Positions 3,001 to 16,969 of a stretch of DNA of 64,000 nucleotides are shown in pieces. How positions within the stretch are numbered: the first letter of the stretch is position 1; every line of letters starts with the position of its first letter. The notes beneath the pieces are model-generated. The model worked only from the letters and a program-made list of their open reading frames with translations, had not been told where the DNA came from and ran no database searches. Both the position numbers and the translations under genes were made by a program. Origin of the DNA: Balneolaceae bacterium (GTDB lineage: Bacteria > Bacteroidota > Rhodothermia > Balneolales > Balneolaceae); NCBI GenBank assembly GCA_006969905.1, contig CP030887.1, forward strand, positions 1,780,001 through 1,844,000, written 5' to 3'.

Positions 3001-5713
3001 CTACTTTGAGTACGACCTTCGCGGCAACCTGGTGCGCGTGGAAGACCCGCGGGGGCTGGCCACCACTTATAGTTACAACCCGCTGGGGCAGCTCACCGCC
3101 AAGAAGCTCCCCGACCAGGACTACAGCGTAAACTATAAATATGACGAGAAAGGAAGGCTGCGCTTCACCCAGGACCCCAACCAGAAATCGCAGGAAAATG
3201 ACCTGAGCACCAATGTAAGCGGCAACCCCAACTTCACCCAAACCCTGGTGGTCACCACCGATGGCACGCTCAGCTACGATGTATACACCTTCGACTTCTA
3301 TATGGGAGGCTATACGGTCCGGGTACGCCACCAGGAAGCCGGGAATGCCATTATCCATAGCCATTACTTCCCCGGGGATGACCAGCACGCCTGGTCGGCC
3401 ACGGTAGCCCCCGGCACCTACACCCTGGAAGGGGTGGCCGATGATCCCGGGGAACCCATAGCCGGGGCCGGGGGAACCTTTGCCTTCACCTCCTTCGACA
3501 TCTACACCTACACCAGGTACGACGAGCTGGACCGCCCCACCGAAACCGGGCGATATTACGGGGCGGTTGCCTTTGCCAGCGCCAATGCCAACGACCAAAA
3601 CTTCCCGGCCAGCGGCCACACCGCCAACCTGTTGTACTATTACGACGGGGAGCAGGCTTACGAAGACCTGTTATTCCCGCACAACCAGGAAGGCCGCCTT
3701 ACCAAGCTAAGCTACCGGGATTTGAGCGTGGCCACCACCAGTTGGGGGCACACCTGGTACTCCTACAACAGCCAGGGGCTTATTGAATGGATGGTACAAG
3801 ACCCGCCCGGGGTGGTTGGCGAAAAACGCATTGAATACGAATACGATGAGCTGGGCAGGATGACTAAACGTATTTATCAAAGAGGTTTAGCTAATGAGCG
3901 CTTCCAGCTGCGCTACAGCTACGATGGGCTGGGGCGGCTTGCCAAGGTAGAAAGCAGCACCAACGACGGCAGCACCTGGACCCGGGAAGCCGAATACACT
4001 GGGTACCTGGCCGACGGGAGCGTAGGGCAGCTCAAACTGGGCAACAGTGCCGTACAAACCGTAGATTACACCTACACCGTGCAGGGCTGGCTGGATAAGA
4101 TCAACAACCCGGCCAGCATAGGAACCGACAAATTTGCCATGGACCTAGCTTACACCGACAACGGAAACATCAGCAGCCAGCAGTGGCGCCAGCCGGGCCT
4201 TGACGCCAACCTGGCCAGCTATGGCTACAGCTATGATAATGCCAACCGGCTGACCGCGGCCGACTTTGCAGGCACCGTCAACTACGATGTGAGCTATACT
4301 TACGACAAGAACGGCAATATAGAACGTGTAAACCGCCACGGGCAATACGGCTACGATTACCAGACCGATTACTGGACCGGGATAAGCGCCACCAGCAACC
4401 GTATAGTCGATTATTCCCTGGCACAAATTGACTATATTTATATTGGCTATGATGCCAGCGGCAACCTCAACTACAATACCCAGCAGGGGATCAACTCCAT
4501 TGATTATGACTGGCGGAGCCTCCCCGCCCAAACGGTTACCCAGCGCAGGGGAACCATGCACTACGCCTATGATGGGGAGGGCAACCGGGTGCGCAAAGAA
4601 CTTGCCGGAGGGGCCGAAACGCACTACGTGCGCGGGGCCGGGGGTGAAGTACTGGCCGTCTATGAAAACGGAAGCCTGCAGTTCCACAACATCCTGGCGG
4701 GGGCCGACATCATAGGCACCTGGGACGGGTCGCAAAGGCGATATTTCCTCAAAGATCATTTAGGTTCGATAAGGACCACCGTTGACCAGAGTGGTAACGT
4801 GGACGGCTATGACGACTATTACCCGTTTGGCTTGGTTATGCCTGGACGGTCAAGCAACAGCGCCAACCCGAACGATAACTACAAGTTTACCGGGCATGAG
4901 TTGGATGACGAGGCAGGATTAAATATCTATCACATGAACGCGAGAGGAATGGATCCTGTCTTAGGGCGTATGATGCAGATAGATCCGTTAGCAAGTATGT
5001 TTCCAGGGTGGAGCTCGTACAGTTATGCCTTTAACAATCCAATGGGATATACGGATCCAACAGGAATGGCTCCGCTATCTACCCATACAGATTCTTCGGG
5101 AAATGTGTTGGCCGTTTATAACGATGGGGATTTGGGGGTTTATAGACACGAAGATGCAACGACAAAAGAGGAAGTCGATAAAAAAAGAGAAGCAACAGGA
5201 ACTACTTCTGGTGGAGGAGAGAATATGGGGAGAACAGCATTTTGGGATGAATTTGCAACACACGATAATAAAACTGGGAATGTCATTCGCAATGCCGATG
5301 GTTCTGTAAATGTATTAAGCAACAGCAAGATTCATTTTGGAATACAGATTAATACTTTAGTTAATAGTATTTATACTGTTGGAGACTTATCAACCAATGG
5401 TGTTGGGTTGGCTCGCTTAGCCTATCAATCTTCGCCTGGGCAGCAACTTGATATAAAAAGAGGCCCATTAAATGCATCCGATGGATACATGTTAAATGGG
5501 GTATATGTTACTGGTCGTAGTGCAGGAAATTATTTGGCAGGTAGAAATGCTAACTTTGCAGGTCAGTCCTGGAATCGAACTATAAAAGCTGCAGGACTAT
5601 TGCATATGGTAAGTAACGGAATTAACCCACTTAGTGGTTTTTTCCCACCAACATATGGTGAGATACCATCCGCAGCTAGATGGATTCAAATAGGGCATAA
5701 AACTCAATGGTGA
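2..5713 (+). CDS. Rhs/YD-repeat polymorphic toxin protein, 5' end outside the window
   Basis: The frame is open through the left edge (Asp-Ala-Thr-Gln-Ser before the first internal Met at 17), so the N-terminus and start are missing. About 1,900 residues are visible, mostly YD repeats such as YDSFGRLKETYNPNGER near residue 740, counting from the Met at 17. Residues about 1060-1160 are a beta-rich, non-repeat insertion. The Rhs core closes with KDHLGSIR near 1580, DYYPFGL near 1600 and DPTGMA near 1680. Such proteins form a shell that encapsulates and delivers a C-terminal toxin. The last about 215 residues are the variable toxin, and the DNA becomes visibly more AT-rich there. That domain has LDIK, then AGNYLAGRNA, loosely like the DxK...GN...G pattern of Ntox44-type Rhs toxins; this is a weak guess. 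A small lipoprotein gene follows after 6 bp as candidate immunity gene. Confidence 0.95.
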   Translation, partial: DATQSMTKAEKELLDKMVDHDYDTQPDRFILSTPTVNGEFFYTDQGFVFKSRQKVKIQVYFKTTNSNLIDYWEVTDAGGIKYTFTAKEESIVYAHSFSYPIGGSGTGTASDLSHTSAWYLTKIEHPQTSSDLLIEYSGTSHSYSEPVEESAIVYGTAVSSSPVFCNEVPDMYAESAVATSTAAPLPSKIRFSNDANTYVAFSWASRDDITVNGKRLSEIRVYKHSNLVRKFSFGHSYFVNGAHKRLRLDSVTEYDSGNNSLPPYSFTYNTGTIPDYDSKAMDHWGYYNGQNNSTLVPTTVHDGNTVFTGANRNPNAAYAQTAILTQVKYPTGAITDLLYEGNTYSYVNGVAKTSNGNIGGVRIKQISYSDGSGATSREKVYSYTRSNDPQLSSGNLYAEPAFASVGSSVFYDGSQNITCGYLTIGSSAPFQLGDYTWNQFGYNQVTEKQSTGSEYGKTVYRFEKNPHKDEGKLDKTETYDQADALHSKTDHDYVYGTGSKWAQYATPSRKVDTYTHPFGAGGFRTVQDTTWITNGNSMWEYYDYLDYTTQEVYNGTPNAVVTTKDYVVNTTTMLPSQLIEHTEGTASRTTLYSYFTNAAAHIYNYPLSISVTSGATTLTKTWTEWTNNSGISPGGKWRAWKSWQWKGGSPSNPPSSANAVLTSQVNLYDTYGNPLVVEDAGGHQTKYYYGSVAAPFSQNGHNGVNGVYLTGIERVKSGANLYTKAGYNSRGELIKITDENNDARSFTYDSFGRLKETYNPNGERISRNVYYYSLDDNPMYNPADPNRIETITYNTPADTTDKTLSVSYLDGLGRPIQSQVRGGTQAILTETRYNDRGLPEVASRPILKTGVSGYVADLMGAGFAPDPGVPSTLLLPATSQVEDYYDTVAPTGEEDYAYSYTQYEASPLARVEKSTLPGSTHKIGSGKEVETTWGLNTTETFTINGKNWGVNTLAKTVTTDPSGKETIAYTDGWGRTIVSGVNMNPGGDDILNKASSDLVTYFEYDLRGNLVRVEDPRGLATTYSYNPLGQLTAKKLPDQDYSVNYKYDEKGRLRFTQDPNQKSQENDLSTNVSGNPNFTQTLVVTTDGTLSYDVYTFDFYMGGYTVRVRHQEAGNAIIHSHYFPGDDQHAWSATVAPGTYTLEGVADDPGEPIAGAGGTFAFTSFDIYTYTRYDELDRPTETGRYYGAVAFASANANDQNFPASGHTANLLYYYDGEQAYEDLLFPHNQEGRLTKLSYRDLSVATTSWGHTWYSYNSQGLIEWMVQDPPGVVGEKRIEYEYDELGRMTKRIYQRGLANERFQLRYSYDGLGRLAKVESSTNDGSTWTREAEYTGYLADGSVGQLKLGNSAVQTVDYTYTVQGWLDKINNPASIGTDKFAMDLAYTDNGNISSQQWRQPGLDANLASYGYSYDNANRLTAADFAGTVNYDVSYTYDKNGNIERVNRHGQYGYDYQTDYWTGISATSNRIVDYSLAQIDYIYIGYDASGNLNYNTQQGINSIDYDWRSLPAQTVTQRRGTMHYAYDGEGNRVRKELAGGAETHYVRGAGGEVLAVYENGSLQFHNILAGADIIGTWDGSQRRYFLKDHLGSIRTTVDQSGNVDGYDDYYPFGLVMPGRSSNSANPNDNYKFTGHELDDEAGLNIYHMNARGMDPVLGRMMQIDPLASMFPGWSSYSYAFNNPMGYTDPTGMAPLSTHTDSSGNVLAVYNDGDLGVYRHEDATTKEEVDKKREATGTTSGGGENMGRTAFWDEFATHDNKTGNVIRNADGSVNVLSNSKIHFGIQINTLVNSIYTVGDLSTNGVGLARLAYQSSPGQQLDIKRGPLNASDGYMLNGVYVTGRSAGNYLAGRNANFAGQSWNRTIKAAGLLHMVSNGINPLSGFFPPTYGEIPSAARWIQIGHKTQW

Positions 5714-5719
5714 TCTGTT

Positions 5720-6079
5720 ATGAAGAATAAAGTATTTTTGTGTATGACATTTATGTTTTTGTTGCATGTAAGTTGCGAGCGGGTTCCTATTGAAATCAAG
5801 GACTATATAAATTTAAGTGGTGATGATTATTTAGTTGTTTTTAAGCAAAAGTTTCCATTCAGAAGTGAAAACTATGAAGTCACGATTACAAATTTTAAAG
5901 ATAAAGAGATGTTCTATGTTACTTTTGATCAACATAATATATTCTTTGAGATAAAAGATTATGATAGGATTCAACAGAAAAATGATACAGTTTTTGTTTA
6001 TTCAAATTTTAACCCCAAAATTAGAATAGAAGAAAAGAGAGACTACGTATTTAAGTTTATAGATGAACTATCGAACTAA
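5720..6079 (+). CDS. Small lipoprotein, candidate immunity protein for the rhs tail
   Basis: This 119-residue protein begins with a hydrophobic stretch ending in a lipobox, LHVSC, with the lipidated Cys at residue 19, so it should be exported and membrane anchored. I do not recognise the mature domain, which is about 100 residues rich in charged and aromatic residues. It starts 6 bp after the rhs stop, has the same low GC as the rhs toxin tail, and is followed by a terminator. That is the usual place and look of a cognate Rhs immunity gene. If so, the exported location suggests that the tail toxin acts in the periplasm or at the envelope. Function is inferred from position only. Confidence 0.7.
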   Translation: MKNKVFLCMTFMFLLHVSCERVPIEIKDYINLSGDDYLVVFKQKFPFRSENYEVTITNFKDKEMFYVTFDQHNIFFEIKDYDRIQQKNDTVFVYSNFNPKIRIEEKRDYVFKFIDELSN

Positions 6080-6110
6080 GCAAAGCAAGTGGGATAAGAA
6101 ACAAACTAAA

Positions 6111-6148: not shown

Positions 6149-6472
6149 CTACTGAATGGCCTTGAGCTTGGTAGCTTTAATAAAATTGTCGATGGTGAGT
6201 AGCAAGGAATCTCTATCCTGTTCTGGGAGCTGTTGTATTTCCTTGGTTCGAGCGAGTACTTCCTTGTCCAGTAGTTCGCCTCCCTCAATCAGGTAATCGA
6301 GGGTAACCCCTAAAGCGTCCGCAATCTTTTTGCCTACATCTATCGAAGGCGTAATCTCACCCCGTTCATAGCGTCCGATAATGGGAGCCGAAGTTCCCAC
6401 CTTTCCCGCCAGTTCTTCCTGAGACCACTTTTTGTCTTTGCGCAATTGAGTAATACGTTGTCCGAATGTCAT
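6149..6472 (-). CDS. XRE-family transcriptional regulator, cassette 1
   Basis: This is a 107-residue protein with an N-terminal helix-turn-helix of the Cro/C1 type: FGQRITQLRKDKKWSQEELAG, then a recognition region SAPIIGRYERGEITPS, then ALGVTLDYLIEGG. The C-terminal helix ends LLLTIDNFIKATKLKAIQ. It points away from the SymE-ATPase-recombinase operon, with 150 bp between the two starts, so it probably represses that operon and itself. The cassette 2 copy (11883-12221) keeps the last about 25 residues almost unchanged, while its DNA-binding half has diverged, so the two regulators probably read different operators. Confidence 0.9.
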   Translation of the reverse strand: MTFGQRITQLRKDKKWSQEELAGKVGTSAPIIGRYERGEITPSIDVGKKIADALGVTLDYLIEGGELLDKEVLARTKEIQQLPEQDRDSLLLTIDNFIKATKLKAIQ

Positions 6473-6622: not shown

Positions 6623-6817
6623 ATGGCCACCAAACGCACCGTCAAGTTACAGCCCAAGCACCGGGAGCTTGCCCGAAGAAAAACCAGAATTGTCCCGGAA
6701 CTTCGGGTAAATGGAATTTGGCTGGAGCAGCACGGATTTGTGGCAGGCTGTAAGGTGCAGATTACGGTAAAGCAGAACGAACTGGTTATTACTCCCACCA
6801 AAACCCAAGAGCTATGA
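6623..6817 (+). CDS. SymE-family small protein, cassette 1
   Basis: This 64-residue protein has the SymE signature: KLQPKHRELARRKTRIVPELRVNGIWL, then HGFVAGCKVQITVKQNELVI. SymE proteins have an AbrB/SpoVT-like fold; the E. coli member is a type I toxin controlled by an antisense RNA. Here the gene is first in an operon, and its stop overlaps the ATPase start as ATGA, so the two are translationally coupled. The cassette 2 copy is arranged the same way. That suggests a DNA-binding accessory protein of the mobile element rather than a free toxin. No antisense RNA promoter could be established by eye. Confidence 0.8.
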   Translation: MATKRTVKLQPKHRELARRKTRIVPELRVNGIWLEQHGFVAGCKVQITVKQNELVITPTKTQEL

Positions 6818-8328
6818 ACCTGCTCGACACCACCAACCCCGAAGCGCCAACCTTTACCACAGAAGATTTAACGATCACCATTTTAGGCGGGGTAAAATTA
6901 GGCGGTCTGGACAAATTAAGAGTTACCCTAAAAGTGGAGCACGAGGACAACCCTCCAATAAGACAGAATCTGGATTTATACCACAGCTCCCAAGTCGGGA
7001 AACTCACCGAACAGATTGCAGGCTTGTTCGAACTCCCAACGGAAACCATCCAAGAAACTGTTGAAGAACTTACCTCCGAGCTGGAAGCGTGGAGAATGAA
7101 TCAGTTAGAACTGTTGAGCAAACCCAAAACTGAGAAGCCTACACTCTCGGGAACGGAGAAAACCAAAGCCACCAAATGGCTGAAAGCCCCGAAGCTCATG
7201 GAACGCACCCAGGACTTGCTTGGGCAGGCCGGAATCGTGGGCGAAGAAACCAACCGTCTTTTACTCTGGCTGGTCATGAGTTCAAGGAAAACGGCGAGGC
7301 CGTTACACGCCGTTAGTCTCGCATCCAGCGGGGTAGGAAAAACCCATCTGCAACAAACCCTGGCCGGACTGCTTCCACCCGAAGATGTGCTGGAAATGAC
7401 TTCCCTGAGCGGAAACGCCCTGTACTATTTTAAAGGGGATGAGCTCAAACACAAACTCCTGCTCATCGAGGATCTGGACGGGGCGGAGGAAGTCTTATAC
7501 CCGCTGCGGGAACTGCAAAGCAAGGGCAGGCTCAGTAAAACGGTAGCGGTGAAAGGTCCGAGAGGAACTTTGCGGACAGAGATTTTGGAAGTGGAAGGCC
7601 CGGTCTCGGTGGCAGCGGCCACCACCAAAGAAACGATCTATTCCGACAATGCCAACCGGGCGCTGCTGTTAACACTGGACGAATCGGCCGAGCAGGACAA
7701 ACGAATCTTAGATTACCAGCGAAAACTCGCCTCTGGAAAAATAGACCAGGAGAAACAGATCGAAGCGAGGAAATTGTTACAAGCCACCCAACGGCTGTTA
7801 GAACCTGTCGAAGTTCAGAATCCCTTTGCGGAAAGCCTCGGGCTTCCTTCCCAAGTCTTTACTCAACGGCGAGCCAATCAGTTGTACTTGGATTTGATCG
7901 GAGCGATTACTTTTTACCACCAACATCAAAGAGAAACCAAAGCCGGAGCCATCCAAACCAGCCCGGAAGATATCGAGTGGGCGAATAAACTCGCAGCTCC
8001 GGTGTTGCTCAGAAAGTCGGACGAGTTAAGCGGAGCCTGTCGGAGTTTCCTTGAAGAACTCAAATTCCATCTGAAACGAAACAAACAGGATTCCTTTACC
8101 TCTCATGAAATCCGTAAACCGCTACGGATTCCGTACTCCACATTGAAAAGATACTTGCTCCAACTTCGGCAGAACGGATTTGTAGAAGTAGCCGGAGGGG
8201 ATCGAAAGAATGGATTTACCTACCGGATCACCGAGCCGAAGGAATACGAAGAGTTAAAAAACGGAGTACAAACGGCACTGGATGAAGCATTGAGCAAGCT
8301 TCTGGAAACGACCGAAACCGAGGGATAA
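6814..8328 (+). CDS. P-loop ATPase with C-terminal winged helix, mobile-element helicase-like, cassette 1
   Basis: This protein has 504 residues. Residues 170-178 are a Walker A motif (ASSGVGKTH) and 215-222 a Walker B (LLIEDLD). Between and after them come SLSGNALYYF, LRELQSKGRL and a TTKE...NANRALLLTLDES block. From memory this resembles the ATPase domain of primase/helicase proteins on bacterial mobile elements. The last about 90 residues form a winged helix (FTSHEIRKPLRIPYSTLKRYLL, then NGFVEV). The ATPase part is nearly identical to the cassette 2 copy, but the winged helix is not. It overlaps symE by 4 bp and is followed by repeats it may bind, then by two recombinase genes. It probably loads or remodels DNA at the element's recombination or replication site. 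Confidence 0.8.
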   Translation: MNLLDTTNPEAPTFTTEDLTITILGGVKLGGLDKLRVTLKVEHEDNPPIRQNLDLYHSSQVGKLTEQIAGLFELPTETIQETVEELTSELEAWRMNQLELLSKPKTEKPTLSGTEKTKATKWLKAPKLMERTQDLLGQAGIVGEETNRLLLWLVMSSRKTARPLHAVSLASSGVGKTHLQQTLAGLLPPEDVLEMTSLSGNALYYFKGDELKHKLLLIEDLDGAEEVLYPLRELQSKGRLSKTVAVKGPRGTLRTEILEVEGPVSVAAATTKETIYSDNANRALLLTLDESAEQDKRILDYQRKLASGKIDQEKQIEARKLLQATQRLLEPVEVQNPFAESLGLPSQVFTQRRANQLYLDLIGAITFYHQHQRETKAGAIQTSPEDIEWANKLAAPVLLRKSDELSGACRSFLEELKFHLKRNKQDSFTSHEIRKPLRIPYSTLKRYLLQLRQNGFVEVAGGDRKNGFTYRITEPKEYEELKNGVQTALDEALSKLLETTETEG

Positions 8329-8454: not shown

Positions 8455-9351
8455 ATGGAAAACTTAAACGCTCAATTTGAACAATCCTTACAAGCCTTCA
8501 CCGATTGGCTGGGAATTTTGGGCTATGCCGAGGCGACCCAAAAAGGCATTCCCGAACGGCTGGCCGAATGCTTGAACTGGCTACAGGAAAAAGAAATCAC
8601 ACAGATTCACCAGATCGACCAACACCACATCGAGGCGTTTTTATCGGAGCAGGAAACCCGACCCAACAAGCGAAGGGGCGGAGGCCTTAGTGCCAGCTAT
8701 TTGAACAAATACGTGCAAGCCTTGAAACTGTGGAATTCCTTCCTTGCACAAACGGGCACGGCTCATTTGGAACTCACGCTCGACTACTACGAAGCCAACC
8801 CCGAGTTGCCCACCGTCTTAACGGAATCCGAAATTAAGCAATTGTACCAAGCTTGCACCGACGACGAATTTGGATTGCGTGATCGGGCGATTCTGGGCTT
8901 GTACTACGGCTGTGGGCTGCGAAGAAGCGAGGGCATCACCCTCGACGTGGCCGATGTCCAGTTCAGTCGAGGACTTTTGTACGTGCGCAAAGCAAAAGGC
9001 AACAAAGAGCGCTACGTTCCCCTGGCTGGAGGAGTCGCCGAGGATCTGCGGTGGTACCTGGTCGAAGCTCGCCCCAAACTCCTGAAGAATGCGAGCAACG
9101 CCTCACTCTTAATCAGCCTGCGTGGCACGCGCCCGCAAGGACAAAGTATGGCCCTGCGTCTGGCTGGTCTGGTGGAGAAAGTCGGAATCCCTAAAGAGGT
9201 AGGGTTGCACAGTCTCCGGCACTCCATTGCTACGCACCTGCTGCGCGCTGGAATGCCTCTGCCCGAAATCCAACGCTTTTTAGGCCATTCCTCACTGGAA
9301 TCCACGCAGATTTACACGCACCTAAAAGAAGAGGTGGAAGATGACCTTTGA
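8455..9351 (+). CDS. Tyrosine recombinase Int1 (XerC/D-like), intact copy, cassette 1
   Basis: This 298-residue protein has the full tyrosine recombinase set: Arg156 in GCGLRRSEG, Lys181 in AKGNKER, His252 and Arg255 in LHSLRH, His278 in LGHSS and the nucleophile Tyr287 in IYTH. The N-terminal half is a SAM-like core-binding domain. The integron-integrase extra domain is not seen. The start at 8455 follows a conserved leader hairpin. The stop overlaps the Int2 start by 11 bp, so the two are probably made together and act as a pair. It is the only unbroken Int1 of the two in this window. Confidence 0.95.
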   Translation: MENLNAQFEQSLQAFTDWLGILGYAEATQKGIPERLAECLNWLQEKEITQIHQIDQHHIEAFLSEQETRPNKRRGGGLSASYLNKYVQALKLWNSFLAQTGTAHLELTLDYYEANPELPTVLTESEIKQLYQACTDDEFGLRDRAILGLYYGCGLRRSEGITLDVADVQFSRGLLYVRKAKGNKERYVPLAGGVAEDLRWYLVEARPKLLKNASNASLLISLRGTRPQGQSMALRLAGLVEKVGIPKEVGLHSLRHSIATHLLRAGMPLPEIQRFLGHSSLESTQIYTHLKEEVEDDL

Positions 9352-10225
9352 AAAGTATTTGCAGGAAAAAGGGTTAGCAAAAAAGACGATTCAAACCTAT
9401 TCGTTCAATGTAAGCTTGTTTGAAGAATGGCTGAGAACCTGCCTGCCGGCAGGCAGGGCCGAACTCATTCAGGAAATTACTTACTCGGAGTTGTTGAATT
9501 TTATACGAAATCGAAGATCGTTGGGCGAATCCCGGAACCTGATCGCCAATCGCTTAACAGCCGTTCGCTGGTGGTTGCGCTGGCAAAAAGGCGAAGGACT
9601 CCGAACCACCAATCCAGCGGAAAACCTGTTTTTAAAAGGACAGAAAAGAAGGCTTCCTCATGACCTGTTAGAAGCCGAACAACTCGAAATCCTGTACCAG
9701 GAATTCCCAACGGAAACCATCATCGATCAGCGAAACAAAACGATGTTGGGTTTGCTCGTCCATCAGGGAATCACCACGGGCGAACTGGCCAGGCTGGAAC
9801 CTTTGCACCTGAATTTAGAAGCCGGGACTATTCGGATTTTTCCCACCAAGCAAAGCAATGGAAGAAAGCTCGAATTAAAAGCCTTCCAAGTTCTAGAACT
9901 CTACCGTTACCAGTTGGAAATCCGTCCGAAACTTCTCGAAGAAAAAGGGTTTGATTCCCCAAAACTCATCCTTTCCAATGGAAGCTCGGCCAGCCTGGGA
10001 AACACCTTGCAGATTCTTTCCCGACAACTCAAAAACCAATATTCCTACTTTACTGGGTTCCCTCAAATTCGGGCGAGTGTGATCGCAAACTGGCTTAAAA
10101 CCCATCCGCTCTGACAGGTGCAATATTGGGCGGGGCATAAGTACGTTTCCTCCACGGAGCGCTACCTTTTGGGCGGACTCGAAGGGCTGAAGCAAAGCGT
10201 AGAACAATTCCATCCGTTGCGATAA
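9341..10225 (+). pseudogene. Tyrosine recombinase-like Int2, broken by a TGA near its end, cassette 1
   Basis: The frame is intact for 257 codons, then has TGA at 10112-10114 where the cassette 2 copy has CGG (Arg251). Reading through, the frame continues to TAA at 10223 and restores the missing end. The stop removes the part with the conserved His and the nucleophile Tyr, so the truncated product cannot be an active recombinase. It also carries an in-frame insertion of seven residues, CLPAGR being part of it, made by a 20-bp palindrome at 9438-9457. As in cassette 2, the first catalytic Arg is replaced by Thr (GITTGEL). Confidence 0.85.
9438..9457. repeat. 20-bp perfect palindrome inserted in Int2
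   Basis: The sequence is CCTGCCTGCC followed by its exact complement. It adds about 21 bp in frame against the cassette 2 copy (nine residues between Trp-Leu and Glu-Leu-Ile in place of two) and encodes CLPAGR. It looks like a small dispersed palindromic repeat that entered a coding region. Confidence 0.7.
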
Positions 10226-10240
10226 ATCGAAGCAGATACA

Positions 10241-10598
10241 CGGCGTACTTCAGGCACGAGGTACATAATGGGTAATTATGGTACAGCCCGGGGTTCACTC
10301 CGCATAGCTCTCTGACGGGCAGACTACGTTCACAGCCAAGCCGTCCCATAACGCCATTATGTAAAGTTCGCCTCCAATCCCAACCTTCCCGAACAGCGCC
10401 CCGATCCGCACCAACTTTACATAACCGGCTTATAGGACGAGCGGAATCAGCCCGCAAGAGAGCTAGTGGAGTTTGTACTATAAGATGCGCCCGGTTATGT
10501 AACAGTAGGGGTAAGAACGATCACCCAACCTTGTAAAAGATTCCTCTACTTTTGGTAAACCGAATTGCAAGTAAGCGAGCAAGTAACGATTATAAAAC
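10241..10598. repeat. Folded non-coding block R1, attC-like candidate recombination site
   Basis: This 358-bp block recurs as R2 (16557-16969) in front of the other displaced rhs tail. It holds three nested hairpins. Hairpin 1 is 10262-10363: TACATAATGG and TTATGG pair with CCATAA and CCATTATGTA. Hairpin 2 is 10357-10424: TTATGTAAAGTT with AACTTTACATAA. Hairpin 3 is 10417-10502: TTACATAACCG and CTTATAG pair with CTATAAG and CGGTTATGTAA. Paired outer and inner boxes, unpaired spacers and a tip that differs between R1 and R2 are the architecture of an integron attC site, including AAC...GTT in hairpin 3. It may instead be a structured RNA. The first and last parts are almost identical in the two copies. 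Confidence 0.6.
10547..10554 (+). promoter_or_regulatory. Possible Bacteroidota -7 box upstream of the second rhs tail
   Basis: TACTTTTG fits the TAnnTTTG box and is conserved at the same distance (45 bases before the ATG) in R2 at 16918-16925. A TTG lies upstream, but only 13 bases away, shorter than the usual spacing, so this is a weak call. Confidence 0.35.
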
Positions 10599-11573
10599 AT
10601 GCAGTTAAGCGAGGCACATATTTTTAGCTCCGATGTTTTTCCCCTGGGAATGCAAGAGGGTCAAATTTTTTCCACTTCGGTAAAAAAATGCTCCGACTAT
10701 TACCCGTTTGGACTAACCATGCCCGGACGGTCTTCGAACTCTGCCAATCCGAATGACGATTACAAGTTTACGGGATATGAATTGGATAACGAAGCCGGGT
10801 TGGACATCTATCATGCGAATGCGAGAGGCTACGATCCGGTGTTGGGCAGGTTTATGCAGATTGATCCACTCCACGATCAATTCCCATCATGGAGCACGTA
10901 CACTTATGGGTTGAACAACCCCATGAAGTACATCGACCCAACCGGAATGGCTGCCGAAGAAGCCGGAGGATGTCCACCGTGCAGTTTTGAATACTTCACC
11001 CGTTGGCTGTTCCAGGATTACGACAATACCTACGTGGGCGATCTGGCACGGGCCGATGCCCAGGGGCAATTGGATCAAAAGGTAGCCCAGGATTTAAAAG
11101 ATGCGGGCAACGCTGCGGTAGATGCAACGGCGGAACTGGCGGATAATCTCTCCGATGCTTCGACGTGGGCAGCAGTTGGAGGCATAGGATTAGCCGCAGC
11201 TGGGGTAGCTGCTTCATCAACAGGAATCGGTGCACCTGCAGGAGCTGCAATGGTGAGTTCAGGCATTTCCATTACGGGTACCGCTCTTACGGTAGGAACG
11301 GTAGCTGATGCAACTTCTACTGTAGCCAAAGGAATTGATGCGGTAGCCTTTGATGGTTCTACAGATGCCTTTATAAATCAAGGTGCTGAGCTTGGTATAA
11401 ATATATTAGGTGGTAGGTACTTACCTAAAGTAGGTGCTGCGACAGTACGATATCTTGAAACAGCAACACAAGCAACTCGACGTGTACCTGCATCATTGGG
11501 AATACGGAACACAGTAGGAGTAGCTACAGATGCAACGAGAGTAGCGATTCCTCTAATCCTTTTTAATGAATAA
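10599..11573 (+). CDS. Displaced Rhs C-terminal tail with hydrophobic toxin domain
   Basis: This 324-residue protein has three parts. Residues 1-32 are a leader (MQLSEAHIF...VFPLGMQEGQIFS) not found in the main rhs gene but shared with the third tail. Residues 33-118 copy the end of the Rhs core (DYYPFGL to DPTGMA). Residues 119-324 are a different toxin domain. About 185-240 is Gly/Ala-rich and hydrophobic, which may insert into membranes; I do not recognise the family. There is no shell and no secretion signal, so it should be inert for delivery until recombined onto a full rhs gene through the shared core. It has its own ATG and a small membrane-protein gene 6 bp downstream. Confidence 0.85.
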   Translation: MQLSEAHIFSSDVFPLGMQEGQIFSTSVKKCSDYYPFGLTMPGRSSNSANPNDDYKFTGYELDNEAGLDIYHANARGYDPVLGRFMQIDPLHDQFPSWSTYTYGLNNPMKYIDPTGMAAEEAGGCPPCSFEYFTRWLFQDYDNTYVGDLARADAQGQLDQKVAQDLKDAGNAAVDATAELADNLSDASTWAAVGGIGLAAAGVAASSTGIGAPAGAAMVSSGISITGTALTVGTVADATSTVAKGIDAVAFDGSTDAFINQGAELGINILGGRYLPKVGAATVRYLETATQATRRVPASLGIRNTVGVATDATRVAIPLILFNE

Positions 11574-11579
11574 AGTAGT

Positions 11580-11828
11580 ATGAACGAGTATAAAGAAGGT
11601 TTAGCCCGTAAGCTTGTCGAGTTTTTTAGATCAATTGGAATTGATCCGTTATATGGAGTTACAGTACTTGTATGCCTAGTTGTTATTAGTTATCGAAAAG
11701 ATATACAACGTTGGGAGGAGTTGCCCTCCTGGCATAAAGGGTTAATCATTTCTGCGTTTTTTGGTGCTGTAGTGCTAACAATATTTAGCCTACTACAGTT
11801 AACAGGGGTGATCGACTTGGGTGAGTAG
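11580..11828 (+). CDS. Small two-helix membrane protein, candidate immunity protein
   Basis: This 82-residue protein has two hydrophobic segments, about 26-38 (GVTVLVCLVVISY) and about 54-76 (LIISAFFGAVVLTIFSLLQLTGV), separated by a polar loop. It follows the displaced tail by 6 bp and is itself followed by the cassette terminator, the same place the lipoprotein has in the first unit. A membrane immunity protein would fit a membrane-inserting toxin. The family is not recognised, and the role is inferred from position. Confidence 0.65.
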   Translation: MNEYKEGLARKLVEFFRSIGIDPLYGVTVLVCLVVISYRKDIQRWEELPSWHKGLIISAFFGAVVLTIFSLLQLTGVIDLGE

Positions 11829-11882: not shown

Positions 11883-12221
11883 CTACTGAATAGCTTTAAG
11901 CTTGGTAGCTTTAATAAAGTTGTCAATGGTAAGCAGCAGTGATTCCCTATCCTGTTCAGGAAGGTTTGCAATATCCTGGAGGCGTTTTAGCATAACAGGG
12001 TCTTTAAGCAAATTATCCTTTTCCATTTCTCCTATTAAGTAACCCACTGTGGTATCTAAAATCTCGGCCAGTTTTTTTGCCGCCTCAATAGAAGGTATCA
12101 TCTCATCCCGTTCATATTTCCCAATCGTAGTTGAAGAAGTTACAAAGAGTTTAGCGAGCTCTTTTTGAGAGAGATTTTTCGCTTTTCTACAGGTGGTAAG
12201 TTTTTGTCCAAATGTGCTCAT
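11883..12221 (-). CDS. XRE-family transcriptional regulator, cassette 2
   Basis: With the ATG at 12221 the protein has 112 residues; an upstream start at 12251 is possible but would add ten residues that are absent from the relative in cassette 1. The helix-turn-helix reads FGQKLTTCRKAKNLSQKELAK, then SSTTIGKYERDEMIPSIEA. The C-terminal 25 residues (NLPEQDRESLLLTIDNF, then IKATKLKAIQ) are nearly those of the first regulator, while the DNA-binding part differs. It is divergent from symE with about 250 bp between, and probably represses that operon. Confidence 0.9.
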   Translation of the reverse strand: MSTFGQKLTTCRKAKNLSQKELAKLFVTSSTTIGKYERDEMIPSIEAAKKLAEILDTTVGYLIGEMEKDNLLKDPVMLKRLQDIANLPEQDRESLLLTIDNFIKATKLKAIQ

Positions 12222-12293
12222 ATCGACATGATAATAGGTATTTGAAACCATAAATGATACTTATTAATGAAGTGTCAGCTACTAAAATAAATA

Positions 12294-12470: not shown

Positions 12471-12668
12471 ATGCCAAACAAGAAAATTGTCAAGTTACAG
12501 CCCAAACACCGGGAGTTAGCCCGAAGAAAGATCAGGATTGTGCCCGAATTGAGAGTAAATGGGATTTGGCTGGCCGAGCACGGGTTTACCGCAGGTTGCA
12601 AGGTGGAAATTACGGTAAGGCACAATGAACTGGTGATTATTCCGGCAGACCAAACTTTAGGGAAATGA
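12471..12668 (+). CDS. SymE-family small protein, cassette 2
   Basis: This is a 65-residue protein with the SymE core KLQPKHRELARRKIRIVPEL and HGFTAGCKVEITVRHNELVI. It is close to the cassette 1 copy, apart from the extreme ends. The stop overlaps the ATPase ATG as ATGA, again coupling the two. Conservation of both the protein and its coupling in diverged cassettes argues that it serves the element. It probably binds DNA or RNA; a toxic activity as in E. coli SymE cannot be judged from sequence. Confidence 0.8.
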   Translation: MPNKKIVKLQPKHRELARRKIRIVPELRVNGIWLAEHGFTAGCKVEITVRHNELVIIPADQTLGK

Positions 12669-14128
12669 ATAAACTGGATACCACCAACCCCGAAGCCCCG
12701 GTATTTGCCACAGAAGAACTTACCATCACCATATTAGGAGGCGTAAAGCTCGGAGGTCTGGATAAGCTAAGAGTTACTCTAAAAGTAGAGCACGAAGATA
12801 ATCCACCGATCAGGCAAAACCTTGACCTGTACCATTCCAGCCAGATAGGAAAACTCATCGAACAGATCGCAGGGCTTTATGAACTCCCAACGGAAACCAT
12901 TCAGGAAACGATCGAGCAATTAACCAGCGAGTTAGAGCAATGGAGAATGTCCCGGCTGGAACTGTTGAGCAAGCCCAACACGGTGGTTCCCGTGCTCACC
13001 GCTCCCCAGCGCAAGAACGCGCGCAAGTGGCTGCGAAGGCCCAACCTGATGGAACGCACCCAGCAGCTGTTGGGCCAGGCCGGGATCGTCGGCGAAGAAG
13101 TAAATCGTTTGCTCTTATGGCTGGTGATGAGTTCAAGGAAAACAGCGAGGCCGTTGCATGCGGTAAGCCTGGCCGCCAGTGGGGTGGGTAAAACCCATTT
13201 GCAGCAAACCCTGGCCGGGCTGCTTCCGCCCGAAGATGTCTTAGAGGTAACGAGCCTCAGCGGAAACGCCCTGTACTATTTTAAAGGAAACGAACTCAAA
13301 CATAAACTTCTGCTCATTGAAGACCTGGACGGAGCGGACGAAGTGCTCTATCCGCTTCGGGAACTCCAGAGCAAAGGAAGATTGAGCAAAACGGTAGCAG
13401 TGAAAGGACCACGGGGAACGCTTAGAACCGAAATCTTGGAAGTGGAAGGCCCGGTCTCGGTCGCAGCAGCCACCACGAAGGAAACGATCTACCAAGACAA
13501 TGCCAACCGTGCCTTACTGCTTACCTTGGACGAAAGTTCTGAGCAGGACAAAAGAATCTTAGACTACCAACGAAAGTTAGCTTCCGGTACCATCGACCAA
13601 GCGAAACAAACCGAAGCGAGGAAATTGTTACAAGCCACCCAACGGCTTTTGGAACCCGTAGAAGTTCAGAATCCGTTTGCCGAAAACCTCCAACTCCCGA
13701 GCCAGGTCTTTACCCAACGCCGGGCGAACCAGTTGTACCTGGATTTGATCTCGGCGATCACCTTCTACCACCAGCACCAGCGAGAAGTGAAAAACGGAGC
13801 GGTGCAAACGAGCCTGGAAGATATCGAGTGGGCGAACAAGTTGGCGGCTCCCGTGTTGCTCAGGAAAAGCGATGAACTCTCTGGGGCTTGCAGATCATTC
13901 TTAGAAGATTTGAAAACCTATCTGAATACCAAGAAACAAGACGAATTCACGAGAAAGGAAATCCGGTCGGCGTTGCGGTTGCACCCCTCTAAATGCAAAC
14001 GGTACATGGCCGAGTTGTCGGCGTTCGGGTATGTGGAACGAGTGGCAGGAAATAAAAAACAAGGATTCGCTTACGGGCTAACCGGAGCCGATCCCTACGA
14101 GAAACTGAAGCAAGAAGTAGTTCAGTAG
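12665..14128 (+). CDS. P-loop ATPase with divergent winged helix, cassette 2
   Basis: This 487-residue protein keeps the Walker A (AASGVGKTH) and Walker B (LLIEDLD) motifs and the SLSGNALYYF and LRELQSKGRLSKTVAVKG blocks almost unchanged from cassette 1. The C-terminal winged helix is clearly different: FTRKEIRSALRLHPSKCKRY and GYVERVAGNKKQGFAY replace the cassette 1 residues. Its last codons contain the first copies of the cassette 2 repeat (AAGTAGTTCA at 14115). The pattern, constant motor plus exchanged DNA reader, fits a protein that recognises its own cassette's repeats. Confidence 0.8.
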   Translation: MNKLDTTNPEAPVFATEELTITILGGVKLGGLDKLRVTLKVEHEDNPPIRQNLDLYHSSQIGKLIEQIAGLYELPTETIQETIEQLTSELEQWRMSRLELLSKPNTVVPVLTAPQRKNARKWLRRPNLMERTQQLLGQAGIVGEEVNRLLLWLVMSSRKTARPLHAVSLAASGVGKTHLQQTLAGLLPPEDVLEVTSLSGNALYYFKGNELKHKLLLIEDLDGADEVLYPLRELQSKGRLSKTVAVKGPRGTLRTEILEVEGPVSVAAATTKETIYQDNANRALLLTLDESSEQDKRILDYQRKLASGTIDQAKQTEARKLLQATQRLLEPVEVQNPFAENLQLPSQVFTQRRANQLYLDLISAITFYHQHQREVKNGAVQTSLEDIEWANKLAAPVLLRKSDELSGACRSFLEDLKTYLNTKKQDEFTRKEIRSALRLHPSKCKRYMAELSAFGYVERVAGNKKQGFAYGLTGADPYEKLKQEVVQ

Positions 14129-14244: not shown

Positions 14245-15141
14245 ATGAACGAATTAGCTCCACATTTTAAGCAATCTTTAGAAGCCTTCACAGAGTGACT
14301 GGGGATTTTGGGCTATGCGGAAGCGACCCAAAAAGGCATTCCAGAGCGTTTAAAAGAAATGTTGTTTTGGTTGCAAGAAAAACAGATTACGAGCATCCAT
14401 CAGATTGATCAATTCCACATCGACACCTTTTTAGCCGAACAAGAAACCCGCCCGAACAAGCGAAGAGGCGGAGGGTTGAGCGCTTCTTACCTGAACAAAT
14501 ACGTGCAAGCTCTCAAGCTCTGGAATTCCTTCCTGGCTCAAACTGGCGCGGCTCATTTAGAACTCACGCTCGATTATTACGAAGCTAATCCAGAGTTACC
14601 CACGGTCTTAACAGAAACCGAAATTAAACAGCTTTACCAAGCGTGTTCGGACGATGAATATGGATTAAGAGACCGGGCGATTCTGGGTTTGTACTACGGC
14701 TGTGGGTTGAGGCGAAGCGAAGGCGTGGCGGTCGATGTTCCGGACGTACAATTCTCCAGAGGCTTGTTGTATGTCCGTGCCGGAAAGGGAAACAAAGAGC
14801 GCTACGTTCCTTTGGCCGGACAGGTGGCGGAGGATCTGCGGTGGTATTTGATTGAGGCACGGCCGAAACTTCTCAAAGAAAACAAATCCTCTTCGCTGCT
14901 CATCAGCTATCGCTCCCGCCGCCCGCAAGGCCAGAGCCTGGCCCTGCGTCTGGCTGGCTTGGTAGAGAAAGCCGGAATCCCTAAACCCATTGGGTTGCAT
15001 TCTCTCCGGCACTCCATCGCTACGCACCTGCTCCGCAACGGAATGCCTCTGCCCGAGATACAGCGCTTTTTAGGGCATTCGAGCCTGGAATCCACCCAAA
15101 TCTACACGCACTTAACCGAGGAGCTTGCCCATGACCTTTGA
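14245..15141 (+). pseudogene. Tyrosine recombinase Int1, broken by an early TGA, cassette 2
   Basis: From the ATG at 14245 the frame reads MNELAPHFKQSLEAFTE and then TGA at 14296-14298, where cassette 1 has TGG (Trp18). After the stop the frame is open to 15141 and keeps every catalytic residue (GCGLRRSEG, GKGNKER, LHSLRH, LGHSS, IYTH). A restart at the TTG at 14308 or at a downstream ATG (14359) would give a protein lacking the first N-terminal helix, so weak function is conceivable. Its stop overlaps the Int2 start by 11 bp, as in cassette 1. Confidence 0.8.
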
Positions 15142-15994
15142 AAGATACTTGCAGGAAAAAGGGTTGGCCAAAAAGACGGTTCAAACCTATGTGTTTAATG
15201 TGAGCCTCTTTAAAGAATGGCTGGAAGAAGAACTCATAAAAGAGATTTCCTATTCGGAGTTATTGAAATTTATCCGCTCTCGGCGTTCGCTTGGGGAAAG
15301 TAGAAACTTAATTGCTTCCCGGATCACGGCGATTCGCTGGTGGTTGCGATGGCAAAAACACGAAGGCAAACGAAGCACGAACCCAGCGGAAGGATTGCAC
15401 CTGAAAGGAGGAAAACGGCGGCTTCCTCATGACCTGCTGGAAGCCGAACAATTGGAGAGTTTGTACCAAGAGTTTCCTTCGGAAAGTTTTATTGAAAGTA
15501 GAAACAAAACGATCATTGGTTTATTGGTTCATCAAGGAATTACGACCGGAGAACTGTCGAGATTAGAACCTGAACATCTAAATTTAGAAGCCGGGACTAT
15601 TCGGATTCTCCCGGTCAAACAAAGTAACGGGAGAACCTTGCAGCTGAAACCGTTCCAAGTGTTGGAGCTGTACAAATACCAGCTGGAAGTTCGTCCGAAA
15701 TTGATTGAAGAACGAGGCAAAGATTCGAATAAACTTATCCTTTCCACCGGAACATCTGATCGGTTAAATAACACCTTACAGATTCTGGCTAACGGACTCA
15801 AAAACGAGTACGGATTCTTTACAGGATTTCCACAGATTAGAGCCAGTGTAATTGCAAACTGGTTAAAGGTTCATCCACTCCGGCAGGTCCAATATTGGGC
15901 AGGTCATAAATATGTTTCCTCCACCGAACGATACTTACTCGGAGGTTTGGAGTCTTTGAAACAATCGGTCGAGCAGTTCCATCCTCTCAGGTAA
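15131..15994 (+). CDS. Tyrosine recombinase-like Int2, intact copy, lacks the first catalytic Arg, cassette 2
   Basis: This 287-residue protein starts at the ATG at 15131 (MTFERYLQEKGLAKKTVQTY); the TTG at 15125 is not needed. It keeps Arg237 (QIRASVIANWL, in place of HxLRHSxATxL), His259 (AGHKYVSS) and Tyr268 (ERYL). The position of the first catalytic Arg is Thr (GITTGELSRL, near 138) in both cassettes. That makes it an unusual partner recombinase, perhaps a structural or regulatory subunit that needs Int1 for catalysis. It overlaps the Int1 frame by 11 bp. It is the only unbroken Int2 in the window. Confidence 0.9.
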   Translation: MTFERYLQEKGLAKKTVQTYVFNVSLFKEWLEEELIKEISYSELLKFIRSRRSLGESRNLIASRITAIRWWLRWQKHEGKRSTNPAEGLHLKGGKRRLPHDLLEAEQLESLYQEFPSESFIESRNKTIIGLLVHQGITTGELSRLEPEHLNLEAGTIRILPVKQSNGRTLQLKPFQVLELYKYQLEVRPKLIEERGKDSNKLILSTGTSDRLNNTLQILANGLKNEYGFFTGFPQIRASVIANWLKVHPLRQVQYWAGHKYVSSTERYLLGGLESLKQSVEQFHPLR

Positions 15995-16034: not shown

Positions 16035-16072
16035 TCGTACTTGTATGACATATGAACCAAACCCCTTGCATG

Positions 16073-16291
16073 ATGCCGATTACTGTACGTTTAGGAGACT
16101 CCGTAGAAAAGCGCCTTGATGAGCTGGCCAAGCTTACCGGACGCACTAAAACCTATTATATCCGCCAGGCTTTGGAAGAAAAGTTGGACGAGCTGGAAGA
16201 TTTGTATGTGGCTGAGCAACGTCTTGAGCAGCCCGAAGGCAAGCGATGGAGTCTGGAACAATTAGAGCGTGGCGATGACCTGGAAAGTTGA
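16073..16291 (+). CDS. Ribbon-helix-helix antitoxin (RelB-like)
   Basis: The conserved part begins [41 protein letters not shown], a MetJ/Arc-type ribbon-helix-helix, followed by an acidic tail that would wrap the toxin. Starts at 16052, 16070 and 16073 are possible; the last fits family length best (72 residues). The stop overlaps the next gene. It should neutralise the RelE-like toxin and repress the pair. It is present only in cassette 2, between Int2 and the folded block R2. Confidence 0.85.
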
Positions 16292-16547
16292 ATTTGATAA
16301 CCGTGCCCGTAAAGAGCTTCGAAAGCTCGACAAACAAGCCCAGGATCGCATTCTGAAATGGCTTCGTGAAACCCTCGCTACCGAAGAAGATCCCAGAAGA
16401 ACAGGTAAATCCCTGAAAGGACGCATGAAAGGATTGTGGAGATACCGGGTTGGGGATTACCGGATCATCAGCCAAATCCAAGATGAGAACATACTTATTC
16501 TGGTTGTTCGTATAGGTCATCGAAGAGATATTTACGAAGATAAATAG
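16275..16547 (+). CDS. RelE/ParE-family toxin
   Basis: This 90-residue protein starts at the ATG at 16275 (a GTG at 16269 is also in frame): [20 protein letters not shown], then [25 protein letters not shown] and [12 protein letters not shown], the typical RelE fold order with the basic C-terminal residues. RelE proteins cut mRNA on the ribosome. It overlaps the antitoxin gene by 17 bp. Toxin-antitoxin pairs often stabilise gene arrays such as integrons, and this one sits exactly at the boundary of the repeated block. Confidence 0.9.
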
Positions 16548-16556
16548 CCACATTCG

Positions 16557-16969
16557 CGGCGTACTTCAAGCACGAGGTACATAATGGGTAGTTATGGTAC
16601 AGCCCGGGGTTCACTCCGCATAGCTCTCTGACGGGCAGACTACGTTCACAGCCAAGCCGTCCCATAACGCCATTATGTAAAGTTCGCCTCCAATCCCAAA
16701 CCTCATCCAAATTCTTTCCGAACAGCGCCCCGATCCGCACCAACTTTACATAACCGCCTTATAGGACGTGGAACAGCAGGTGCGAAAAGCCCTGAACGAG
16801 GCCGTTCCACCGAGCCAGCGAGAAGGAGTTTGAAGCCCTGCCCATGTACTATAAGAGGCGCTCGGTTATGTAACAGTAGGGGTAAGAACGATCACCCAAC
16901 CTTGTAAAAGATTCCTCTACTTTTGGTAAACCGAATTGCAAGTAAGCAGGGAATATCCGATGTTGAAAC
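16557..16969. repeat. Folded non-coding block R2, attC-like candidate recombination site
   Basis: This is the second copy of R1, 413 bp. Hairpin 1 is 16578-16679 and hairpin 3 is 16746-16873, with the same paired boxes (TTACATAACCG, CTTATAG, CTATAAG, CGGTTATGTAA). The tip of hairpin 3 is 84 bases against 42 in R1 and holds its own stem GTGGAAC / GTTCCAC. The loop of hairpin 2 also differs by a short insertion near 16700. Flanking DNA and stems are nearly unchanged, so variation is concentrated in the tips, as in attC sites. It ends at the ATG of the third rhs tail. Confidence 0.6.

Follow-up and report, generated by a model that had tools for sequence, protein, structure and literature searches.

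We analyzed a stretch of 64,000 nt from a Balneolaceae bacterium (GCA_006969905.1, contig CP030887.1, positions 1,780,001 to 1,844,000, forward strand), hereafter the window, in which a polymorphic toxin gene of the Rhs type is followed by two displaced toxin tails. Each displaced tail is preceded by a module of recombinase genes and by a hairpin-bearing block that we call R, and we focus on the first of these blocks, R1 (10241 to 10598, + strand), which lies between the second recombinase gene of the first unit and displaced tail 1. All results are those of comparative sequence analysis, and counts of loci include related genomes and repeated cassettes, so the counts are not independent.

The main toxin gene (17 to 5713, +) encodes 1,898 amino acids including its current tail, tail 0; it matches RHS_repeat and Rhs_assc_core and carries a core site, GACTATTACCCGTTTGG (DYYPFG codons), at 4814 to 4830 (+). 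The small gene after tail 0 (5720 to 6079, +) is presumed to encode immunity from its position alone and had no Pfam match. Two units then follow in one order: a helix-turn-helix (HTH) repressor on the opposite strand, a small SymE-like protein, an ATPase, two recombinases (Int1 and Int2), R, and a displaced tail. In unit 1, these are the repressor (6149 to 6472, −), which scored above the cut-off of an RstR-family model; the SymE-like gene (6623 to 6817, +; PF08845); the ATPase gene (6814 to 8328, +), with Walker motifs recognized by eye and no Pfam match; Int1 (8455 to 9351, +), a XerC/D-like tyrosine recombinase; and Int2 (9341 to 10114, +), which is truncated by an in-frame stop, its likeness to other Int2 copies continuing to about 10222. 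Displaced tail 1 (10599 to 11573, +) begins behind R1 with an R-coded leader that precedes the Rhs core, and the core site of the R1/tail 1 border lies at 10695 to 10711 (+). Another small gene, presumed from position alone to encode immunity, follows at 11580 to 11828 (+).

Unit 2 repeats this order, with a repressor that resembles the unit 1 gene at its end (11883 to 12251, −), a SymE-like gene named by likeness to the unit 1 copy (12471 to 12668, +), an ATPase gene (12665 to 14128, +), Int1 (14308 to 15141, +), a full-length Int2 in which the catalytic Arg I and the His of HxxR are replaced (15125 to 15994, +), R2 (16557 to 16969, +; hairpins at 16577 to 16680 on the − strand and 16746 to 16873 on the + strand), and displaced tail 2 (16970 to 17947, +), with the core site of the R2/tail 2 border at 17066 to 17082 (+). 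Between Int2 and R2, this unit holds a ParE/RelE-like toxin gene (16269 to 16547, +) that is absent from unit 1, preceded by an antitoxin-like open reading frame (ORF) of 73 amino acids (16070 to 16291, +) named by position alone. In each unit, the ATPase gene starts within the end of the SymE-like gene. The locus thus has the makeup of an Rhs displaced-tip array: a main Rhs gene, then tips that each carry their own core fragment.

The original prediction, made from the letters of R1, described three hairpins with alternating cores. The four boxes are present and alternate (GTACATAA at 10261 to 10268, TTATGTAA at 10357 to 10364, TTACATAA at 10417 to 10424, and TTATGTAA again at 10495 to 10502), but three hairpins cannot form together. 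Hairpin A, the first (10261 to 10364, −), and hairpin C, the third (10417 to 10502, +), can coexist; the middle hairpin (10357 to 10424, no strand assigned; arms TTATGTAAAGTT at 10357 to 10368 and AACTTTACATAA at 10413 to 10424) is an alternative that excludes both, because it reuses one box of each. Hairpins A and C are one element in opposite orientations, with the order outer box, 5-nt spacer, inner box, loop, inner box, longer spacer, outer box; hairpin A was placed on the − strand since its short spacer comes first on that strand. The inner boxes are TTATGGTAC (10276 to 10284) and GTCCCATAA (10343 to 10351) in A and TTATAGGAC (10430 to 10438) and GTACTATAA (10475 to 10483) in C, and the longer spacer measures 7 nt in A and 11 nt in C. 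The paired outer and inner boxes were therefore as described, and the AAC/GTT noted in the outer boxes of the third hairpin is there in C (TTACATAACC / GGTTATGTAA). The spacers, described as unpaired, are largely paired in predicted DNA folds, with the extra bases bulging on one strand.

Folded as DNA, both hairpins were better than shuffled sequences, with z scores of −4.6 for C (0 of 200 shuffles as good) and −2.5 for A (3 of 200). The region from 10220 to 10598 gave z scores of −3.7 as RNA (0 of 100 shuffles) and −2.8 as DNA (1 of 100). Alignment of R1 with R2 gave 92% identity in the first 212 bases and 86% in a later stretch of 331, and the adjoining regions of the two units are less alike (77% for the ATPase and 74% for the integrase). 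A DNA search of the 3.49-Mb genome found R1 and R2 as the only R blocks, and the four hairpins that a covariance model (described below) found in this genome all lie inside them. Taken together, folding and comparison indicate that the R1 hairpins are real and conserved.

The module to which R belongs was found in many other genomes. Matches to the ATPase turned up in 2 of 146 relatives and in 13 of 394 genomes from the phylum (both counts include the window's genome), as well as in 32 of 395 genomes of one class within the phylum, these 32 including remnants (G398 and G760) and one match of 33 residues (G241). A scan of named genomes gave 256 relatives among the candidates, from which 79 loci were kept (the L set), in Aquimarina, Tenacibaculum, Flagellimonas, Arenibacter, Salegentibacter, Fulvivirga, Mucilaginibacter, and others. 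Among the 97 ATPase copies of these 79 loci, Int1 lay behind 90 and Int2 behind 83; an Rhs core was upstream of 80, a divergent HTH gene accompanied 82, a core was found downstream within the contig for 43, and all five features were present for 33, many of the contigs ending early. The corresponding numbers for 38 ATPase copies in the 30 G loci were 37 (Int1), 36 (Int2), 30 (upstream core), 27 (HTH), 23 (downstream core), and 17 (all five). At least one side carried an Rhs core in 68 of the 79 named loci, and a core was present in 26 of the 30 G loci. Two loci have non-Rhs toxins, namely, G265, with an AHH nuclease domain at the end of its main gene, and G295, with a short toxin that has a signal-peptide-like start. 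By these counts, the module is widespread in Bacteroidota and tied to toxin tails.

Two further observations concern the gene content of these loci. Pairs of small ParDE/RelBE-like genes recur between Int2 and R or beyond, as in the window (16070 to 16547), L029 (2344 to 2969), L100 (8026 to 8555), and L096 (3270 to 3796 and, on the − strand, 2530 to 3053); the Pfam comparison covered the window's toxin, and the other pairs were named by appearance. In L100 and L096, an additional copy of the 3′ end of Int2 adjoins such a pair. Separately, L186 places a module on a contig labeled as a metagenome-assembled genome of Rickettsiales, with an ATPase 72% identical to the Bacteroidota query, which may reflect mis-binning or transfer.

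The closest solved structure to Int1 is XerD (E = 1.9e-29), and the unit 2 Int1 aligns along XerD 1a0p with no long insertion. In an alignment of the G loci (duplicates and frames of <240 or >400 amino acids left out), Int1 kept Arg I, His, and Arg II in 34 of 34 sequences and Tyr in 33 of 34, so that it is a XerC/D-related enzyme with complete active-site residues. Int2 kept Tyr in 27 of 29 but Arg I and the HxxR His in only 1 of 29 each. That Int2 is without two catalytic residues in 28 of 29 suggests a one-strand exchange, as in integrons: one complete and one degenerate recombinase would exchange a single strand and leave the junction for replication. A scan of genome contigs with Int2 as the sole query gave no matches. 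The ATPase relatives in G295 and G265 are fused to an N-terminal CHC2 zinc finger and a Toprim domain, parts of a DnaG-type primase; the window ATPases match neither of these domains nor any Pfam family, and no solved structure matched the ATPase by sequence.

Conservation of the hairpins was examined with a covariance model built from 18 hairpins of 12 genomes (alignment A1). This alignment contained 47 double-sided changes, compared with 18.8 in shuffles (0 of 500 reached this value) and at most 22 when the partner was slid. When new hairpins were fitted to the model (alignment A3, which because of this fitting leans towards the structure), there were 102 double changes versus 41.4 in shuffles (0 of 500). 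The attC-like plan of the original prediction (outer box, spacer, inner box, asymmetric bulge) is thus conserved and covarying across genomes. Conservation across families also extends past the hairpin into about 170 bp on one side, often at 75 to 80% identity (the right flank in L027, L028, L085, L097, L100, and others), and this flank carries further nested inverted repeats (TGGCGCATnTTTTTG ... CAAAAAGTGTGAC).

We scanned 74 of the 79 named loci with the model, none of which had contributed to building it; L192, L193, L195, L202, and L248 were left out as contigs already represented. Matches were found in 46 of the 74 loci at 84 distinct places, 4 of them counted twice through the overlap of L204 and L245 (80 without the overlap). 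Of the 84 places, 82 fell in a gap that follows Int2 and ends at the next tail or at the end of the contig; such gaps make up 133,563 of the 922,116 bases searched (14%). The remaining two, close to the start of their contigs, precede a tail core, and Int2 is not visible there. Complete gaps between Int2 and the tail contained at least one hairpin in 36 of 44 cases and at least two in 21 of 44, and gaps cut by a contig end contained a hairpin in 18 of 35. In 20 of 36 gaps, the last hairpin lay 155 to 210 bp before the tail-core match, and in R1 it lies 193 bp from the core site. Across the 395 genomes (two genome lists taken as the same sample), the hairpin model matched in 16 of the 32 with an ATPase match and in 8 of the 363 without one (P = 2.6e-14), an association that is partly circular because 10 of these 16 genomes had trained the model; without the 10, the counts were 6 of 22 and 8 of 363 (P = 3.8e-5).

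The covarying stem, which includes some G-U and U-G cells, and the conserved flank with its inverted repeats would also be expected if R were a transcribed structured RNA that regulates the module or the displaced tail, for example as a leader, attenuator, or guide. We consider this the least probable of the alternatives. The box sequences are nearly invariant on both strands, as recognition by a protein would predict, the element can face either way with respect to the tail, and no Rfam family reached its gathering score in R1 or anywhere in 7 further loci. Within the window, the sole Rfam match was a distant cobalamin riboswitch (RF00174, 29663 to 29864, 109.7 bits). An RNA family lacking any junction at cassette ends is not what the search returned, given the concentration of hairpins in the gaps between Int2 and the tail. 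The spacing of the last hairpin before the tail core, together with the primase parts fused to the ATPase in G295 and G265, could instead mean that the hairpins are priming sites or replication origins for the primase-helicase relative of the module, with the recombinases using the core at the tail border alone. This, too, we regard as unlikely, since R is kept in the window, where the ATPases match neither primase domain, and the boxes resemble recombinase half sites.

The position of the crossover could be read from nine loci (G212, G490, G295, L204/L245, L214, L226, L230, L255, and L259) in which near-identical tandem copies allow the reading main|A ... R|A, followed in some by R|B. Of these, L226 is from Flagellimonas pacifica and L214 from an Arenibacter. 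In all nine, the identity of main|A and R|A starts at the R/tail border, and where R|B exists, R|A and R|B diverge again at or just past this border. These limits of identity confine the crossover to a short window. Six loci are bounded on both sides, with windows of 5 bp (GGCGG, L204/L245), 8 bp (CTTTTGGG, G490), 8 bp (TGAATTGG, G295), 9 bp (CCCTTTGGC, L226), 10 bp (GGCGGGATGG, L259), and 35 bp (G212), and the border codons in Rhs genes are of the YYPFG type. L204 and L245 are overlapping pieces of one contig, and L245 is informative solely together with L204. The main gene is contig-cut in L204 and G490 and short in L214, and it was not verifiable in L230, where the contig starts 31 bases upstream, or in L255, which has no long open frame. 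In G295, R supplies a signal-peptide-like start (MNNHFKIYLIVALSFFTSFNLSANDTFFSIENKGDRVC) to the displaced tails, at the same codon for two different tails. An apparent repetition of R in the array of G398 was rejected, the blocks being Rhs main-gene coding sequence.

The nine arrays place the crossover at the R/tail border and not in the hairpins. Of the proposal that R1 is the recombination site of the cassette, the part that stood is that the block marks the end of the cassette; the exchange itself falls outside the hairpins. An integron-like alternative, in which the recombinases cut within the folded boxes and the hairpins themselves bound the cassettes, has in its favor the attC-like plan with outer and inner boxes and an asymmetric bulge, as well as several cross-genome comparisons in which homology starts 2 to 11 bases from the foot of a hairpin. 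Also in its favor, the toxin-antitoxin pair of the window stands before R2 and not before R1, and the identity of R1 and R2 begins 20 bp outside hairpin A. Yet the switch from main|tail to R|tail at the R/tail border in the nine duplicated arrays, and the finding of no second hairpin beyond the far side of the toxin-antitoxin pair, leave this alternative with a low probability in our estimation.

The short windows also bear on whether ordinary homologous recombination between Rhs cores moves the tails, the module being a passenger that inserts beside them. The cores do have coding similarity, a published model invokes homologous recombination with circles (PMC2935791, in the text available), and some arrays have many tips and few modules, for instance, G398 (ATPase remnants alone) and G183 (one module and eight tip cores). 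Longer identical runs, the expected substrates of homologous recombination, were left unused in the same cores, however (26, 17, 15, 12, and 11 bp in L204/L245, 12 bp in L226, and 14 bp, twice, in G490), and five of the six bounded loci have windows of 5 to 10 bp. The non-Rhs toxin of G295 has an 8-bp window, and its longest other identical run is 5 bp. Homologous recombination alone therefore does not explain the junctions, and with the module recurring at tail junctions in many genera, we judge the passenger explanation improbable.

In the window's genome, the core is spelled GACTATTACCCGTTTGG at all three sites of the locus and at none of the five other DYYPFG sites found. Many R ends consist of an A-tract, CGCATAAAC, and TAYTATCC, followed by the tail. 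Scoring was confined to junctions that have a YYP-like site, namely, 53 of the 67 R junctions and 69 of the 89 others; repeated cassettes were counted separately, and L192, L193, L195, L202, L248, L200, and L201 were left out. A dif-like motif (near CGCATAAACTAYTATCC) was found in 17 of the 53 R junctions compared with 4 of the 69 others, with the site misplaced in a few junctions, including the window's two. Three of these four other junctions (L241, L246, and L263) have an R-like A-tract and lie close to a contig start (42 to 588 bases), where no Int2 precedes them. The R-end motif, which we take to resemble a Xer-type half site, has CATAA in common with the hairpin boxes. Xer-type sites have, at the crossover, a short core of inverted arms around a 6- to 8-bp spacer; the windows of 5 to 10 bp in five of six bounded loci and the dif-like motif bear on this plan but do not define the arms. 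A host dif site made of exactly these boxes was also considered and provisionally set aside: two simple patterns gave no site in genome G000, the host's dif itself not having been located.

Based on these results, we propose that an insertion cassette, through which polymorphic toxins exchange their C-terminal tails, probably has R1 as its 3′ end and attachment site. The anatomy of the cassette, the conservation and covariation of the hairpins, and the position and size of the junction are read from the sequences; from them we infer that Int1 and Int2 act on R, that the cassette passes through a circle and a single-strand form, and that a one-strand exchange is finished by replication. The cassette would comprise a tail, its immunity gene, the HTH repressor, the ATPase (primase-fused in some relatives), Int1, Int2 with or without a toxin-antitoxin pair, and R. 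As a circle, it would carry one site, made up of the R hairpins, about 190 bp, the short core, and the start of the tail. Int1 and Int2 would recombine this core with the matching core of the main gene (DYYPFG codons in Rhs genes), so that the new tail is joined in frame and the old tail is displaced downstream, to a position behind R. A circle with one R/tail site, on integrating at the main-gene core, would yield this order, main|new tail ... R|old tail. The hairpins, whose inverted CATAA boxes are like Xer-type half sites, may be bound by the recombinases, either as folded structures or as arm-type sites, and a primase-helicase relative in the cassette would suit replication of a one-strand junction.

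Several observations weigh against this proposal. Because the last hairpin ends anywhere from 155 to 1,170 bp from the tail-core match, the part of the hairpins in the reaction can only be surmised. Hairpins were missing from 8 of 44 complete gaps and 17 of 35 contig-cut gaps, and 16 of the 32 genomes with an ATPase match had none at E = 0.001 with strict filters (8 of 29 at E = 1); G420 has a different 19-bp inverted repeat in place of the hairpin. Orientation is mixed, with 11 of the 21 two-hairpin gaps being −+, 9 being ++, and 1 being −−. One of five covariation measures, the pair types in A3, did not exceed shuffles (172 of 500), and the circularity of the genome association was noted above. 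Hairpins also occur away from the module, beside other gene sets, as do all strict matches in G189. As for the crossover, the 35-bp window of G212 fits a site-specific and a homologous mechanism alike, the border in L242 and L250 is 384 bp further upstream, at YDTNGN codons, and L216, L234, and L241, among 12 repeat-bearing L loci, were uninformative on the main/tail border. The repeat in G012 is not at a tail border, and those of G420 join one module to different tails. Within the window, the R ends have the A-tract but no CATAA core motif, and the tail cores are too diverged (72 to 77% identical to the core of the main gene) for a recent crossover to be placed.

The off-module hairpins were seen in L134 to L137 (G189), L143 and L144 (G295), L160 (G209), and L162 (G606). 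Their gene set includes an NKGxNSGKP protein and, in G189, often also MARQKGIIKLKGTIGD... and GKYFIRKRYS... proteins; DUF6943, DUF6266, and DUF5675 are presumably the names for this set. The opposite side of these hairpins varies, with defense-like genes by eye in L134, L135, and L137, and in G189 and G295 their outer flanks are conserved too. In G553, hairpins (L147, 7165 to 7231; L148, 8443 to 8559) adjoin an ORF of 193 amino acids (MSLQGCRTTADYLNW...); by eye its product resembles a small tyrosine recombinase, and it lies on the opposite strand from the module. The G420 locus (L030) has strong palindromes at 6050 to 6094 and 11917 to 11987, one before the module and one in the gap between Int2 and the tail.

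Integron arrays shift older cassettes downstream and contain toxin-antitoxin pairs, and their attC boxes follow the consensus RYYYAAC/GTTRRRY, which we did not find in the R hairpins when looking by eye alone. As described in the part of the literature available to us, integron cassettes carry a folded imperfect hairpin of paired boxes with extra bases on one strand, are inserted at one site by a Xer-related tyrosine recombinase, and undergo a one-strand exchange in which one monomer is held inactive and the junction is left for replication (PMC4792948). The R hairpins resemble attC in having two sets of paired boxes, outer and inner, with extra bases on a single strand. In contrast to integrons, the crossover of the module lies outside the hairpin, in coding sequence, and yields an in-frame fusion; two recombinases, one of them degenerate, are encoded inside the cassette; and the cassette holds an ATPase or primase-helicase. 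The unit 1 Int1 scored 125.2 bits against the integron integrase model TIGR02249, below its cut-off of 265. Because Int1 fails this model and the crossover is outside the hairpin, the system does not appear to be an integron.

For CTXphi, one active recombinase suffices. The module resembles this phage in combining a folded hairpin with Xer-type enzymes, and an RstR-family model matches its HTH protein; it differs in having its own recombinase pair where CTXphi uses that of the host, in its crossover outside the hairpin, and in its cargo of toxin tails, and no phage genes were seen in the module unit. In the accessible text of one review, CTXphi integration by XerC/XerD, also at a folded hairpin, is the only reaction named as resembling cassette recombination (PMC4792948). 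The Rhs arrays of enterobacteria described by Jackson et al. (2009) likewise have a main gene followed by displaced tips, with a circular intermediate postulated in the portion available (PMC2935791); unlike them, the arrays studied here contain a recombinase module and, in five of six bounded loci, crossover windows of 5 to 10 bp. The rAID arrays of Bacteroidales, as far as the available text describes them, have one tyrosine recombinase, conserved intergenic motifs, and orphan immunity genes (PMC12247911). They are the nearest published system from the same phylum that we found, sharing a tyrosine recombinase and conserved intergenic motifs with the module, a likeness drawn from the description and not from aligned motifs; the module differs in having two recombinases and toxin tails, the available description of rAID being without toxin tails. 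We found no account of the module or its hairpins in a literature search of incomplete coverage, with most subscription papers outside it.

A broader reading, which we hold only tentatively and think somewhat doubtful, is that folded-hairpin recombination has, in addition to integrons and CTXphi, a third class, to which the module belongs. Such a class would consist of a self-contained cassette, spread across Bacteroidota, that is taken up as folded single-stranded DNA through the R hairpins and completed by replication after a one-strand exchange at a short core in toxin coding sequence, new tips being thereby fitted in frame onto polymorphic toxins. Its cassette would encode a primase-helicase relative and two Xer-like recombinases, one active and the other degenerate.

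A conserved recombinase module with a likely attachment site inside tip arrays makes the question of how toxin tails are exchanged testable in Escherichia coli. If the hairpins do act as folded single strands, hairpin recombination would extend beyond integrons and CTXphi to a system with two recombinases of its own, one active and the other degenerate. The hairpin and module together may serve as a marker for tip arrays across a phylum.
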